DNA of 64,000 nucleotides from Bacillus tequilensis KCTC 13622 (lineage in GTDB: Bacteria; Bacillota; Bacilli; Bacillales; Bacillaceae). Shown here piece by piece: positions 49,038 to 55,544 of this stretch (position 1 is the first letter of the stretch; each line of letters begins with the position of its first letter). Position numbers and translations under genes: made by a program. The stretch is taken from positions 186,001-250,000 of the forward strand of contig NZ_AYTO01000008.1 in assembly GCF_000507145.1 (NCBI RefSeq). Direction: 5' to 3'. The notes under the pieces were generated by a model. That model did no database searches and was not told the DNA's origin. It saw only the letters and a program-made list of their open reading frames with translations.

Positions 49038-50435
49038 ATGGCTAAAAAAATGCCTGATATTGGTGAATACAAGTATGGTTTTCACGACAAAGACGTTTCC
49101 ATTTTCCGTTCAGAGCGCGGATTGACAAAAGAAATCGTAGAAGAAATTTCTCGCATGAAAGAAGAGCCTCAATGGATGCTTGATTTCCGCTTGAAATCAC
49201 TTGAGCATTTCTACAATATGCCGATGCCTCAATGGGGCGGAGATTTAAACTCACTGAACTTTGACGAAATTACGTACTACGTAAAACCGTCTGAGCGTTC
49301 AGAGCGTTCTTGGGATGAAGTTCCTGAAGAAATTAAGCAAACATTCGACAAGCTCGGTATTCCAGAAGCTGAACAAAAATACCTCGCGGGTGTTTCTGCT
49401 CAGTACGAATCTGAGGTTGTATACCACAACATGAAAGAAGACCTTGAAGCGCAAGGCATCGTCTTTAAAGACACTGACAGCGCGCTGAAAGAAAACGAAG
49501 ATATTTTCCGTGAGCACTGGGCAAAAGTGATCCCGCCGACTGATAACAAGTTTGCGGCGCTTAACTCAGCTGTTTGGTCCGGCGGATCTTTCATCTACGT
49601 GCCTAAAGGCGTAAAGGTTGAAACACCGCTTCAAGCTTACTTCCGTATCAACTCTGAAAACATGGGTCAGTTCGAACGTACGCTGATTATCGTTGACGAA
49701 GAAGCAAGCGTTCATTACGTGGAAGGCTGTACTGCGCCTGTTTACACAACAAACTCACTTCACAGTGCGGTTGTTGAGATCATCGTCAAAAAAGGCGGCT
49801 ATTGCCGTTATACAACGATCCAAAACTGGGCAAACAACGTTTACAACCTTGTCACAAAGCGTACGATTTGTGAAGAAAACGCAACAATGGAATGGATCGA
49901 CGGCAACATCGGTTCTAAACTGACAATGAAATATCCGGCTTGTATCCTAAAAGGCGAAGGCGCGCGCGGTATGACGCTTTCTATCGCTCTTGCGGGTAAA
50001 GGCCAGCATCAGGATGCGGGTGCGAAAATGATTCACCTTGCACCAAACACATCATCCACAATCGTATCAAAATCGATTTCAAAACAAGGCGGAAAAGTAA
50101 CGTACCGCGGAATCGTCCACTTCGGACGCAAAGCGGAAGGCGCCCGCTCTAACATCGAGTGCGATACGCTCATTATGGATAACAAATCAACTTCAGACAC
50201 CATTCCTTACAATGAAATCTTAAATGATAACATTTCATTGGAGCACGAAGCGAAAGTGTCTAAAGTATCTGAAGAGCAGCTCTTCTACTTGATGAGCCGC
50301 GGTATTTCCGAAGAAGAAGCGACTGAAATGATCGTAATGGGCTTCATCGAGCCATTCACAAAAGAACTCCCGATGGAATACGCAGTTGAAATGAACCGTT
50401 TGATTAAGTTCGAAATGGAAGGTTCAATAGGATAA
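49038..50435 (+). CDS. sufB: SufB, Fe-S scaffold subunit
   Basis: A 465-residue SufB scaffold. Recognised by [49 protein letters not shown] and [23 protein letters not shown] with the conserved Cys near residue 375, followed by the shared [20 protein letters not shown] block. aaaggattgg lies upstream. Last gene of the operon; the downstream terminator marks the end of the conserved backbone. Confidence 0.97.
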
Positions 50436-50444
50436 CTAACGATT

Positions 50445-50470
50445 AACCCTTGTTTATCAAGGGTTTTTCT
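50445..50470 (+). terminator. Terminator of sufCDSUB
   Basis: Stem aacccttg / caagggtt with a TTTAT loop and T5 tail. Confidence 0.88.
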
Positions 50471-50924
50471 TATTTTTGATACGTGCCAAGTTTCTGTCAT
50501 GCCAACTTTTTGCCAAGCTTTTATTATCTTGACATGTAAGATGCGAATTTTGCAAGTTTATCCTGTTCGATTTTTTTCATTACATGATGGTTTCACTTGT
50601 TGTTTTTATGCCCCAATCTTTTCGATACATAAAGCAGGGAAGGGATGCACCTGATATTAAGCACCAAGACAGTGTGTGTCTGAAAGCAGGTAAGTCCCTA
50701 TATTCGACCCCCGAAGCTTTATGGTAGTTCTGTTCTATTACAGCTATTTAATGTAGCTGCTCTTTATATTGAATTAACGGGGCAGGATAGTTGAAGGAGA
50801 AAGGTTTGTAACATAAACTAAATATGTACATAAATATGGAAGGATTGCTAGAAAAAAACCTATATCTGGTTCAATAATTAAGAGATAAGGAAACATTTTC
50901 TGGAAGGGATGAAAGGGAATTATT
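50471..50924. other. 454-bp AT-rich non-coding stretch at the left side of the insertion
   Basis: No convincing gene. It holds three direct repeats of tgccaa(g/c)(t/c)tt at 50484, 50500 and 50511, small hairpins agaca/tgtct (around 50672-50686) and cagcta/tagctg (around 50741-50759), and an A-rich run up to the RBS of the next gene. No clear promoter pair was found, although tatatt and taataat segments are frequent near the end. Confidence 0.6.
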
Positions 50925-51263
50925 ATGAGTGAAACAATGCAGCGGATTAATCAATTTAGAGATGAGCGCAACTGGCGGCAATTTCATAATGAAAAAGATC
51001 TGGCCATTTCCATCTCTTTAGAAGCGAATGAATTATTGGAATTATTTCAATGGAAAACACCAGAGGAAACCAAGGGAAATCCTGAGCGACTTAAGGAAGA
51101 ACTGGCAGATGTGCTGATTTACTCTTATATGATGGCTGATAATCTAGGATTTGATATTGATGAAATCATCGCCGAAAAATTAAATAAAAATGCCCGAAAA
51201 TATCCAGTTCCCAAAAGCTTTGGTCAAAAAAAGAAATATAATGAACTGGATGAGGTGGATTAA
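50925..51263 (+). CDS. MazG-like nucleotide pyrophosphohydrolase
   Basis: A 112-residue all-alpha NTP pyrophosphohydrolase of the MazG/RS21-C6 type. The metal-binding ExxE...ExxD pattern is Glu33-Glu36 (SLEANELLELFQW) and Glu59-Asp62 (KEELADVLIYSYMMADNLGFD), as in dCTPase/MazG-like proteins. Such enzymes cleave (d)NTPs to (d)NMP and pyrophosphate. aaaggg precedes ATG 50925. It is three bases before the nuclease-helicase gene, so the two must act together. Its DNA is visibly AT-richer than suf and yurR, suggesting transfer. Confidence 0.87.
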   Translation: MSETMQRINQFRDERNWRQFHNEKDLAISISLEANELLELFQWKTPEETKGNPERLKEELADVLIYSYMMADNLGFDIDEIIAEKLNKNARKYPVPKSFGQKKKYNELDEVD

Positions 51264-51266
51264 GCA

Positions 51267-53021
51267 ATGGCTAAGTACAAATGTATAACATTGAAAGTGA
51301 AAAATGGAGAATTGGATGGTATCGATAGACTTCGTCAGCCTGAACAAAATATCCTTAAAAATGGCAATGTCGTTTATATCTATAAAGGGTCGAAGTCGAA
51401 AAAGATTTACATTGGACAAACGAAACAATTTACTGTGCGGAATAAGCAACACTACAATGGTGAAGATAAAAGATTTAATAATGCAGATTTCGACCAAGTG
51501 ATTATTCTTTGTTCAGTCTATTTAGATGGTGGTACAGCTTTATATGATGTCGAAAGCCAGCTAATCACATACTTTAAGGCGGAGAATTCAAACTCTAGAA
51601 AGCAACTGGTTCATTATGACAATGAGGACATTATTAATGGAAATAAGGGTATCAGCGTCAATGCCTACCGAGACCAAGAAAAGGTTGCTTCAGAAGTTGT
51701 TTTGCCTTTTTGGGAAAACGAGCTATACCCTAATGGATGGGTAAGCACACCGACTTTAAAGAAGTTGCGCAATGAAGCACTGGTCAAATATAGCCCAATC
51801 AAAGTAATAACAGAACAGCAAATGGACATTCTTGATGAGATTGAATCAAATCCTGATATAAGCTTTGTGATTAATGGTGATGCAGGTACTGGCAAAACCG
51901 TGCTGCTGACTCATTTGGTCGCTAAGCTGTTGAATGATAAACCTAATCATAGAATAGCAGTTGTTTTGCAGCCTAACTGGATTAAAACGGCAAAGCAAAT
52001 TTTTAGAGTATATGGAATGAACAACAGTAACCTGACACTTGCTACTTCGACAAAGTTGATTAATGACGATGAAAATTATGATATTGTAATTGTTGACGAA
52101 TCTCATAAGCTTTCCAGAAAATTTTCAAAGCAAATGGCATCTTTTAATAGTGTGTATAAAGGAAGATTTGCACAGGATGAGAACCACTTAGAGTGCTTAA
52201 AAAAATTAGGTCGTCAAATTGTGTTAATGTATGATGTATTGCAAGCTATTCGCCCAGCCAATATGACACGTTCGCAATTTAAGGAAGCAACCATAGATTT
52301 TGAAAAGAGATACTTAACAACGCAATTTAGAATTCAAGCTCCAAAAGGCAAGAACTATACATCAGAGGATTTCGTAAATGGCATAAAATATCTTTTGTAT
52401 AAGGATACAGGTCTATTAGAACAAGAAGAAACGAATTTTAACCCGAATTTTAACAGAGCGGTTTTTCATGATAATGATGCAGATGCTTATTTTGGATATT
52501 TTGAAACAGAACCTTTAAAGAATTTGATTGATTGGGTAGAAGAAGACAGAAATTTCAATCCTGAACACATAAACCGCGTGCTAGGTGGATTAGTTGAACC
52601 TTGGAAGCAGGCTGATGGCAAAGACCAGTCAATCACTCATTGGCATGAAGGGAATATCAAACGAAGATGGAATTCTACTCAAGAAAATTGGGTTTTTTCA
52701 GAGGATGCCGATGCCGAAGATCAGATTGGCTCTGTCTTCGCAGTTCAGGGAATCGATTTGAATAAAGTCGGTGTTTTAATCGGCAATGATCTGCAAGTCG
52801 ACGCAAAGGGTCGGTTATTCGGCAATCCAGAGAATTTTCATAATGCAAACGGCAAGTTCTCAAAAGACGATGAAAGCCCTAAAAATGCACAAGAGTTTAC
52901 CTTATTTGTGTTGAACATTTACTATATTTTGATGACTAGAGGAATTGACGGGATTCGTCTGGGATTCTGGAAGAATGAAGCGTTTAAAAAGTATATGAAG
53001 GAAATATTGGAGATTAAATAA
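51267..53021 (+). CDS. GIY-YIG nuclease-DUF2075 helicase-like fusion protein
   Basis: A 584-residue protein with two domains. Residues about 34-105 form a GIY-YIG-type nuclease: VYIYKG, IYIGQT (47-52), Arg58 and His62 in VRNKQHY and metal-binding Glu96 (YDVESQLITYF). Residues about 180-580 are a DUF2075/SF1-like P-loop NTPase: Walker A GDAGTGKT (204-211), Walker B DIVIVDESH (DESH 277-280), the SVFAVQGIDL motif and a terminal YYILMTRGIDGIRLG arginine-finger motif. gaggtgg precedes ATG 51267. The family has no assigned function that I know; association with a MazG-like gene suggests defence. Confidence 0.85.
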   Translation: MAKYKCITLKVKNGELDGIDRLRQPEQNILKNGNVVYIYKGSKSKKIYIGQTKQFTVRNKQHYNGEDKRFNNADFDQVIILCSVYLDGGTALYDVESQLITYFKAENSNSRKQLVHYDNEDIINGNKGISVNAYRDQEKVASEVVLPFWENELYPNGWVSTPTLKKLRNEALVKYSPIKVITEQQMDILDEIESNPDISFVINGDAGTGKTVLLTHLVAKLLNDKPNHRIAVVLQPNWIKTAKQIFRVYGMNNSNLTLATSTKLINDDENYDIVIVDESHKLSRKFSKQMASFNSVYKGRFAQDENHLECLKKLGRQIVLMYDVLQAIRPANMTRSQFKEATIDFEKRYLTTQFRIQAPKGKNYTSEDFVNGIKYLLYKDTGLLEQEETNFNPNFNRAVFHDNDADAYFGYFETEPLKNLIDWVEEDRNFNPEHINRVLGGLVEPWKQADGKDQSITHWHEGNIKRRWNSTQENWVFSEDADAEDQIGSVFAVQGIDLNKVGVLIGNDLQVDAKGRLFGNPENFHNANGKFSKDDESPKNAQEFTLFVLNIYYILMTRGIDGIRLGFWKNEAFKKYMKEILEIK

Positions 53022-53286
53022 GTAACTGATACTTTGCATGTTCGAATTTTTACAACTATTAACTAGTATTCTCAGGACTTATCTTTTTTAGGATGGGCTG
53101 GGTTATTTGGGCCAAGTCACAATAGCTGTCTTCGACGATACATGCGGTAGCCGCCTTATTCAAATTGTACAGGAGTAATCAATGCATGAAATAACCATAT
53201 TTCTAAACGATTTATTGGTGAGTTATAATCAAAAATTATAACTGTATTATTTACGATTAATTAAGGTTCAATCGGTTAATTTTTCA
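53022..53286. other. 265-bp AT-rich stretch at the right side of the insertion, with a possible gene remnant
   Basis: No complete gene. One frame, 53092-53178, runs 28 codons between stops (DGLGYLGQVTIAVFDDTCGS, then RLIQIVQE) and looks protein-like but has no start; it may be the tail of a lost gene. The remainder is AT-rich with an ataattttt-type stretch (attataactg near 53236). Confidence 0.45.
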
Positions 53287-53336: not shown

Positions 53337-53368
53337 AAAAACCGCAGGCCGAGGGGCGCGCGGTTTTT
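53337..53368 (-). terminator. Terminator of sspG-yurS
   Basis: Stem aaaaaccgc / gcggttttt with a GC-rich 14-nt loop, overlapping the yurS stop; the T tract serves the minus strand. Confidence 0.82.
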
Positions 53369-53639
53369 ACTCTTCATTCTCCGGATTGATGACTTGCTTT
53401 ACAGATGTGCCATTGTGATACCCATTGTTCATCTCTCGTAATCGCGTATAAGCCGTGTCAAATTCCTCTTTTGTCATCTGCTTTGCGGCTAAGGCAGAGC
53501 ACAAAATGGCAAAGGCGATTGGCATTGTATCAATGTGGATGTCGATATGGACCTCTGAGTTGCCGCTGTTTTTGATCACGGATTCAGTAGCGGGTATCTC
53601 TTGAGTGTGTCTGTTGATAGGAATGATGTTTTCGTTCAT
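53367..53639 (-). CDS. yurS: YurS, small spore-associated protein
   Basis: A 90-residue protein (MNENIIPINRHTQEIPATES...). Residues 23-38 (IKNSGNSEVHIDIHID) closely resemble the core of SspG encoded just upstream, after which it continues with MPIAFAILCSALAAKQMTKEEFDTAY. Its ATG 53639 shares a base with the sspG stop (TAATG), so the two are translationally coupled. Function unknown; a sporulation role follows from the coupling. Confidence 0.85.
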   Translation of the reverse strand: MNENIIPINRHTQEIPATESVIKNSGNSEVHIDIHIDTMPIAFAILCSALAAKQMTKEEFDTAYTRLREMNNGYHNGTSVKQVINPENEE

Positions 53640-55169: not shown

Positions 55170-55544
55170 TTGATAAAAATTGATATACCCGCACCGAATG
55201 TCACCATCACCGAACGACAGCAGTCAGCAAATGAGAACGAGCCGAAAATAAAGGCGATTTACGGCTTCATCGACTTTCACCAGATCCCAAGGGATAAAGG
55301 CGGCATTTTTATGTTTTACAACATTCATGACGAGCTGCTGTTTGTTGGGAAAGCGAGAAAGCTAAGACAGAGAATTAAGAAGCATTTTGAAGACAATGTC
55401 TCACCGATCAAGCATCATAGAGACGAAGTATATAAAATTGAAGTATGTGTCGTTGATGATCCAATGGAAAGAGAGATTTACGAAACGTATGCGATCAATA
55501 CCCTTCAGTCGAAATACAACATTGAGAAAGTATTTTATAAATAA
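55170..55544 (+). CDS. yurQ: GIY-YIG nuclease-like protein YurQ
   Basis: A 124-residue UvrC-type GIY-YIG domain: GIFMFYNIHDELLFVGKARKLRQRIKKHF with the GIY replaced by FMF and YIG by FVG, catalytic Arg conserved, and the metal-ligand Glu in MEREIYETYAI. TTG 55170 has aagaggacgtg upstream. Function unknown; part of the conserved backbone and not closely similar to the GIY-YIG domain of the insertion gene. Confidence 0.88.
   Translation: MIKIDIPAPNVTITERQQSANENEPKIKAIYGFIDFHQIPRDKGGIFMFYNIHDELLFVGKARKLRQRIKKHFEDNVSPIKHHRDEVYKIEVCVVDDPMEREIYETYAINTLQSKYNIEKVFYK

Follow-up and report, generated by a model that had tools for sequence, protein, structure and literature searches.

The MazG-helicase pair and the element that carries it

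The window analyzed here, a stretch of 64,000 nucleotides from Bacillus tequilensis KCTC 13622, carries two genes on the + strand between sufB and a gene for a 90-amino acid (aa) protein (53367-53639). The first (50925-51263) encodes a 112 aa protein predicted from its sequence matches to be a MazG-like (DCTPP1-type) nucleoside triphosphate (NTP) pyrophosphohydrolase. The second (51267-53021) encodes a 584 aa protein predicted from profile matches to be a GIY-YIG nuclease fused to a superfamily 1 (SF1) helicase of the Pfam family PF09848. An earlier note, made from the letters of the sequence alone, had placed two genes three bases apart here, and both open reading frames (ORFs) were found as it described them. 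The pair travels as cargo in an integrative element whose insertion site is the 3' end of sufB. Its most probable role, to which a probability of about 0.62 is assigned, is that of a mobile two-gene module for defense against phages or other invading DNA, in which a nuclease-helicase core would be joined by a deoxynucleoside triphosphate (dNTP) pyrophosphatase partner.

The MazG-like protein belongs to PF12643 (MazG-like; 2.8e-26, 92 bits against a curated cut-off of 27) and also matches PF03819 (MazG, 1.8e-6). The metal site that the earlier note had recognized is confirmed: the ligands E33, E36, E59 and D62 (ExxE...ExxD) are kept in 72 of 73 aligned rows, window included, the other row being a gap, while W17 is kept in 72 and W43 in 71. 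By sequence, the protein is closer kin to the DCTPP1 type (nearest solved structures 4qgp, 2e-18, and dCTP pyrophosphatase 1 (DCTPP1)/RS21-C6, 1.1e-16) than to other solved NTP pyrophosphohydrolases, which match more weakly (dUTPases, 2.5e-6 and below; DR2231, 0.01).

The second protein joins a nuclease to a helicase module, as had been proposed. Its GIY-YIG domain (residues 35-105; 51369-51581, + strand) belongs to PF01541 (1.1e-6; 29.3 bits against a cut-off of 22.6) and includes the catalytic Y37, Y48, R58 and E96; in GIY-YIG nucleases catalysis relies on Tyr, Tyr, Arg, Glu and Asn residues. The SF1 helicase domain (residues 200-564; 51864-52958, + strand) belongs to PF09848 (1.6e-39; 136.6 bits against a cut-off of 24; profile positions 4-349 of 354 covered) and has the Walker A GDAGTGKT, DESH, QG and TRG motifs. 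This family, formerly DUF2075, is named SLFN-g3_helicase in the Pfam version used. Residues Y37, Y48, G50, R58, E96, N124, K210, D277, E278, Q326, R355 and Q494 are invariant in all 81 intact rows, and H62 and R558 are each kept in 80 (87 rows, window included, less six in which the gene is split or short). An AlphaFold2 model (five models, 63-sequence alignment) has a mean predicted local distance difference test score (pLDDT) of 85.2, and a Foldseek search with it placed SF1 helicases on top: Dna2 (2.1e-10), Upf1, SLFN11 (5.4e-8) and Dda (1.4e-7). Ratios of nonsynonymous to synonymous substitution rates (dN/dS) against four close relatives, 0.07-0.13 for the MazG-like gene and 0.16-0.25 for the helicase gene, indicate purifying selection on both. 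In the same comparison the helicase core (dN 0.05-0.07) has changed more slowly than the GIY-YIG end (dN 0.12-0.14). Both enzymes look intact.

The pair lies in an insert of ~2.83 kb (50436-53262) flanked by a 17-bp direct repeat. The left, attL-like copy (50419-50435, + strand) is the 3' end of sufB including the stop codon. It has two mismatches to the right, attR-like copy (53263-53279, + strand), which is identical to the native sufB 3' end of three genus relatives (L096, L097 and L104). The insert is not present in these relatives, where the gap between sufB and the next gene is 95, 96 and 118 bp; in a blastn comparison with L096 the left match stops at 50435 and the right match restarts at 53263. 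Single-base shuffles put the chance expectation for a repeat copy with two or fewer mismatches at 0.003 per 3.5 kb. sufB is found in all 44 genus genomes, and the DNA downstream of it was examined in 42 of the 43 others (G035 was excluded, its contig end being too near, and two stretches were short). Besides the three empty sites, the next gene lies 657-6949 bp from sufB in seven relatives and was not found within the stretch examined in 32.

No other part of the window is as AT-rich over a 2.8-kb span as the insert (GC content 35.9% vs 44.9%; 0 of 306 sliding windows as low), which agrees with the earlier note's remark that the pair is AT-richer than its neighbors. That note had also located the pair between the sufB terminator and the next transcription unit. 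The insertion downstream of sufB stands but the placement of the terminator does not: the presumed sufB terminator, a terminator-like hairpin read by eye (AACCCTTG...CAAGGGTT followed by a T run; 50445-50469, + strand), lies inside the inserted DNA and hence arrived with it. What looks by eye like the native sufB terminator remained on the right side of the insert.

Beyond the hairpin, three TGCCAA repeats (at 50484, 50500 and 50511, spanning 50484-50516) may represent arm-type sites of an integrase, and a phage-type tyrosine integrase has left a remnant of its C-terminal part in two frames (50527-50732, - strand). The hairpin and similar repeats are also visible in Neobacillus dielmonensis (L009), where the same 17-bp repeats (at 604 and 17580) flank ~17 kb at sufB. 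This island contains a whole tyrosine integrase, a repressor-like helix-turn-helix protein, a DUF5906 protein, MrcB_N/HNH proteins and the same MazG-helicase pair. Its integrase (387 aa) matches the window's remnant in tblastn at 55.7% over 61 columns (50697-50527, 1.8e-9) and 56% over 50 columns (50732-50589, 5.6e-6); at the DNA level the window matches L009 at 80% over 50316-50732 and at 90% over 50890-53014. The element is thus a site-specific integrative one, with direct repeats, empty sites elsewhere in the genus, and an integrase that is whole in L009 and only a remnant in the window. L009 is likely the fuller form. Given the integrase remnant and an island with the same repeats, integrase and pair, the window's element appears to be such an island after internal deletion, with little beyond the pair retained. 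About 2 kb downstream of the pair, a separate single-domain GIY-YIG protein (55170-55544, + strand; 124 aa, 1.9e-12) is encoded outside the insert; it is not part of the pair.

Conservation, spread and genomic company of the pair

Relatives were compared at 87 helicase loci, window included, consisting of the best 80 of 421 relatives from a contig scan with a six-protein alignment, and loci L001-L007. They come from Bacillota, Bacteroidota, Patescibacteria lineages, others, and a Methanobrevibacter bin. A MazG-like gene is present at 73 loci and missing from 14; at 69 no more than 150 bp separate it from the helicase ORF, as measured between stop-to-stop ORF borders. These 69 genes are located upstream on the same strand (52), downstream on the same strand (14) or on the opposite strand (3); the gene order switches and the partnership persists. 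The four more distant MazG genes are those of L021 (678 bp), L071 (480 bp), L023 (222 bp) and L022 (1250 bp); in L021 and L071 the helicase gene is split and its first piece is closer to MazG. In some relatives (L139, L140) the two frames overlap. Twenty control stretches (220 kb), taken at places of our choosing on 20 contigs that carry the helicase family, gave no MazG-like or family-helicase match at E 1e-4. Pairing thus recurs across distant genomes, which the earlier note had named as support, and the 73 loci exclude the lack of conserved pairing that it had counted as fatal. Distances among the MazG-like proteins also correlate with those among the helicases (Mantel r 0.55, n 70; clade A 0.89, n 11; clade B 0.63, n 59), with none of 2000 permutations as high.

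The two clades just named are those of the helicase tree, ~30% identical to each other: clade A, the window's own, from Bacilli, Clostridia, Anaeroplasma and one Bacteroidetes bin, and clade B, from many phyla. The split helicase gene of the Methanobrevibacter bin L023 is 62% identical, on the clade A side. Of the intact loci, 11 of 19 in clade A and 59 of 62 in clade B carry MazG; of the four clade A rows left out because the helicase is split or short, two carry it (L021, L023) and two lack it (L025, L026). On the Lysinibacillus plasmid L005 the last 27 MazG residues remain (E 2e-4), ending 6 bp ahead of the helicase start. From the counts in both clades and this remnant we conclude that the pairing is old and that MazG can be lost.

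On the helicase tree the two largest labeled phyla, Bacillota and Bacteroidota, need 7 and 5 label changes, and the window's and Paenibacillus copies are 85% identical. Label changes alone are no proof, but together with this identity and the patchy presence we read them as spread by horizontal transfer. At E 1e-30 the window's own helicase type is found in one of the 44 genus genomes, its own, which excludes the housekeeping unit present in all relatives that the earlier note had raised against itself. Clade B helicase matches, some of them broken, occur in 12 of the 44; MazG-like matches also number 12 of 44. MazG ORFs of ~105-117 aa adjoin the clade B helicase in eight genus genomes (L163, L164, L166-L171), with a stop marked inside the MazG match of two of these (G020, G041) in the genus search. 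MazG pieces adjoin it in G012 and G031 and none does in G013. G028 carries MazG but no helicase match at E 1e-30. Plasmid and phage protein searches returned one close plasmid, one close phage-collection contig and otherwise weak matches, and the viral contig scan returned one relative. The relatives on the Lysinibacillus plasmid and on the viral-collection contig are both without a whole MazG gene.

The surroundings match more defense families than control DNA does, a kind of support that the earlier note had asked for: 114 neighbor proteins match 155 PADLOC families at E 1e-10, vs 37 matched by 114 control genes. Neighbors were taken from 20 of 26 loci on long contigs (five were dropped because the contig number was not known, one because the contig was small), with no more than three ORFs (110 aa or longer) per side, cut at 500 aa, and with MazG, family helicases and the L016 second-helicase fragment excluded. 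The controls were 114 of the 117 genes in one 11-kb stretch on each of the same 20 contigs. Among the 25 families listed for the neighbors are viperin, HamA, HamB, Drt5, type IV and type I restriction enzymes, and UzuA.

Some loci have additional components; the window has neither of the two described here. A second PF09848 helicase with a different N-terminal half adjoins or is near the pair in seven clade A loci (L006, L013, L016 (split), L021 (fragment), L023, L024 and L025), and in the clade B locus L078 one lies 3 kb away. In this N-terminal half an R-x-D ... E-L-K motif is invariant in five proteins; Pfam names no domain there. In a model of the L023 protein (pLDDT 74.0) the helix-strand order of this half is presumably that of PD-(D/E)xK nucleases, and the second helicase with its PD-(D/E)xK-like half suggests a three-gene version of the system. 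A Ham1-family pyrophosphatase gene (PF01725, 3.7e-13) directly follows the helicase in two of the 87 loci, L006 (6965-7459; a gut contig) and L021 (5660-6151; Roseburia inulinivorans), the two proteins being 98% identical.

Several single neighbors were also noted. A GP88 gene (PF17338) lies directly 3' of the helicase in L015 (11704-12552), and a gene that by eye looks like a radical-SAM gene holds this place in L022 (11785-13083). In the Bacillus relative L138 a DndB gene, and what by eye are MBL-fold and protease-like genes, are found close to a broken copy; in another, L140, a clade B pair is near a caspase-domain gene. Annotated nucleotidyltransferase, E2/UBC and Mov34/MPN genes lie near the MazG-less helicase of plasmid L005 (12104-16226), and our guess is that they form a CBASS- or Bil-like set.

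Known systems and the function of the pair

The MazG-like protein matches none of the PADLOC-DB 2.0.0 families at E 1; the helicase protein matches 14, all partially, and no single system covers both components. Among the closest known systems are Nhi and AbiO (PDLC02372, PDLC02350; 5.6e-14 and 2.6e-13), which also have nuclease and helicase in one protein, but the window's protein has a nuclease of the GIY-YIG type, and most of its relatives keep a pyrophosphohydrolase partner. Membership of Nhi/AbiO was rejected on the extent of the matches (Nhi, residues 181-335 to model 183-308 of 470; AbiO, residues 181-305 to model 179-275 of 468). With Schlafen group 3 (the C-terminal helicase of SLFN11 and SLFN14) the protein shares the helicase family and, by the Foldseek match, the fold, but it has a GIY-YIG N-terminus and a MazG-like partner gene. 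No Schlafen core (AlbA_2-type) domain is among its Pfam matches at E 0.001, and this assignment was rejected too. The MazG-like protein resembles DCTPP1/RS21-C6 and 4qgp in sequence, with metal ligands and two tryptophans conserved in its family; it differs in that its gene adjoins a nuclease-helicase gene and its activity is predicted. Hachiman (HamAB) and Gabija (GajAB) follow a similar nuclease and helicase logic, and HamA and HamB models were matched among the family's neighbors, but Pfam and PADLOC scans of both proteins revealed no DUF1837, OLD/TOPRIM or UvrD component. Defenses that deplete dNTPs (dCTP deaminase, dGTPase, Clover) likewise place a nucleotide-pool enzyme in a defense setting; here, by contrast, the enzyme is an all-alpha NTP pyrophosphohydrolase joined to a nuclease-helicase.

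Among the papers listed by searches of mostly non-subscription literature, none concerned a pair of MazG and GIY-YIG-PF09848 by title or, where passages were consulted, by these; the passages retrieved from PMC12904381, PMC10853773 and PMC7641849 name no such pair, and no listed title on DUF2075 concerned defense; PADLOC dates from 2023 and a description elsewhere is possible. The pair is probably an undescribed defense system, and we rate it as a new variation on known nuclease-helicase immunity.

A defense function of some kind is quite probable. Immunity is the best reading because the pairing is conserved, the genes are on mobile DNA, their presence is patchy, they have decayed in some genomes, and they keep the company of defense genes. 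The core GIY-YIG-SF1 protein would load on foreign or replicating DNA and translocate along it at the expense of ATP, and its N-terminal nuclease would cut the bound DNA. Nhi is described in PMC12904381 as restricting phages by nicking and unwinding DNA, and the helicase-nuclease may by analogy act like Nhi, cutting and unwinding invader DNA. The MazG-like gene, being three bases upstream, is presumably co-transcribed. Its product, as a DCTPP1-type enzyme, would split a deoxynucleoside triphosphate to the monophosphate, with deoxycytidine triphosphate (dCTP) or a modified dCTP as the best guess. It might thereby starve replication and repair of the damaged invader, or remove the invader's modified nucleotides; from sequence, draining of dCTP and removal of modified dCTP cannot be told apart. 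That the hydrolase drains nucleotides in an abortive response, as the earlier note put forward, is a hypothesis. A grander form of the proposal is a two-level immune operon spread over many phyla and an archaeal bin, in which the DCTPP1-type enzyme would strip the (modified) dCTP pool, leaving phage DNA unprotected or unmade, the GIY-YIG nuclease-helicase would destroy this DNA, and a PD-(D/E)xK-type third component would be added in some lineages; in that full form it is improbable.

Several points weigh against the two-part defense module. MazG is not present at 8 of the 19 intact clade A loci; the helicase-nuclease therefore does not strictly need its partner, and an obligatory two-part scheme is weakened. 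The MazG remnant in L007 is 10 residues long (E 0.89), which is insignificant alone. Linked inheritance alone would also yield the correlation of MazG and helicase distances, and many of the 87 loci are from metagenome bins. The GIY-YIG match is modest, a preference for dCTP is suggested by kinship in sequence only, and some MazG-like enzymes simply have a house-cleaning role. Control DNA matches PADLOC families too (among those listed AbiLi, SoFic, ZorB, AriA and mad3), and the PADLOC tally is a rough measure that counts families, not proteins, with related models overlapping. We know of no phage assay of the pair.

The same two enzymes could instead form a DNA repair or stress module, in which the helicase would process damaged host DNA in the manner of UvrC or Dna2 and the MazG-like enzyme would clean the nucleotide pool, with no part in immunity. 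Dna2 and further repair or RNA helicases are indeed among the fold neighbors of the helicase, and DCTPP1-type enzymes are house-cleaning enzymes in other organisms. A function needed by the host should, however, be vertical and stable, whereas the window's type is confined to one genus genome, relatives sit on an integrative island and a plasmid, the two largest phyla need repeated label changes, and the neighbors match about four times as many PADLOC families as the controls do. A repair module is thus unlikely, and a housekeeping or repair unit was rejected as patchy and on mobile DNA. Rather less credible is a toxin-antitoxin-like pair in which the MazG-like protein restrains or detoxifies the helicase-nuclease. 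The tight coupling of the genes, three bases apart here and overlapping in the two relatives named above, would suit it, but an antitoxin should not be lost first, and intact helicases stand without MazG nearby at the eight clade A loci, including L005 with its 27-residue remnant. An antitoxin role for MazG was rejected on this ground, and the idea as a whole is very improbable.

Two further possibilities are nearer to the defense module. The MazG-like enzyme might eliminate the modified dCTP (or dUTP) of a phage, whose progeny DNA would then contain ordinary bases and be cleavable by the GIY-YIG helicase. dCTP pyrophosphatases act on 5-modified dCTPs, and such enzymes are among the nearest solved relatives of the MazG-like protein. 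This would explain how the nuclease could work alone on unmodified phages where MazG is missing, and also the Ham1-family gene 3' of the helicase in L006 and L021. But no modified-base recognition domain is among the Pfam matches of the nuclease protein, and Ham1 adjoins the helicase in just those two loci, with nearly the same protein; counter-modification is rather improbable. Alternatively, the pair may aid an integrative element or plasmid against rival elements and not the host against phages. It is cargo of an integrase-bearing island, and the plasmid and viral-collection relatives fit such a role. However, relatives of the L009 integrase were found in just five other of the 87 loci (L001 (remnant), L011, L025, L072 and, weakly, L012), a count that covers this integrase family only and flanks of up to 10 kb. 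Service to the element also overlaps with defense, since defense systems are often carried by elements for inter-element competition; as a separate explanation it is quite unlikely.

The 3' end of sufB as an apparent site for defense cassettes

The site that received the pair has received other DNA as well. A second copy of the 17-bp repeat with two or fewer mismatches lies downstream of sufB in 6 of the 42 flanks (L102, L105, L119, L122, L128 and L129). The DNA between the repeats encodes a Shedu system (SduA, 4.7e-137) with an integrase remnant in L102, an LXG protein in L105, a type I restriction-modification set in L119, and a type IIG restriction-modification set in L122 and, judged from near-identical sequence, in L128. 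In L101 an OLD-like protein (7.4e-57) is found ahead of a repeat copy with three mismatches, and L126 likewise has a three-mismatch copy. Relatives of the L009 integrase, whole or partial, are found in 9 of the 42 flanks. The sufB 3' end of Bacillus genomes thus appears to be a plug-in site for defense cassettes, namely restriction-modification, Shedu, OLD and the MazG-helicase pair, and it is a simple place to look for more of them.

If the pair defends, it would be an apparently undescribed immune system present in Bacillota, Bacteroidota, several candidate phyla and a Methanobrevibacter bin. To our knowledge, control of the nucleotide pool and restriction by nuclease-helicases have been known mostly apart; the pair would link the two directly.

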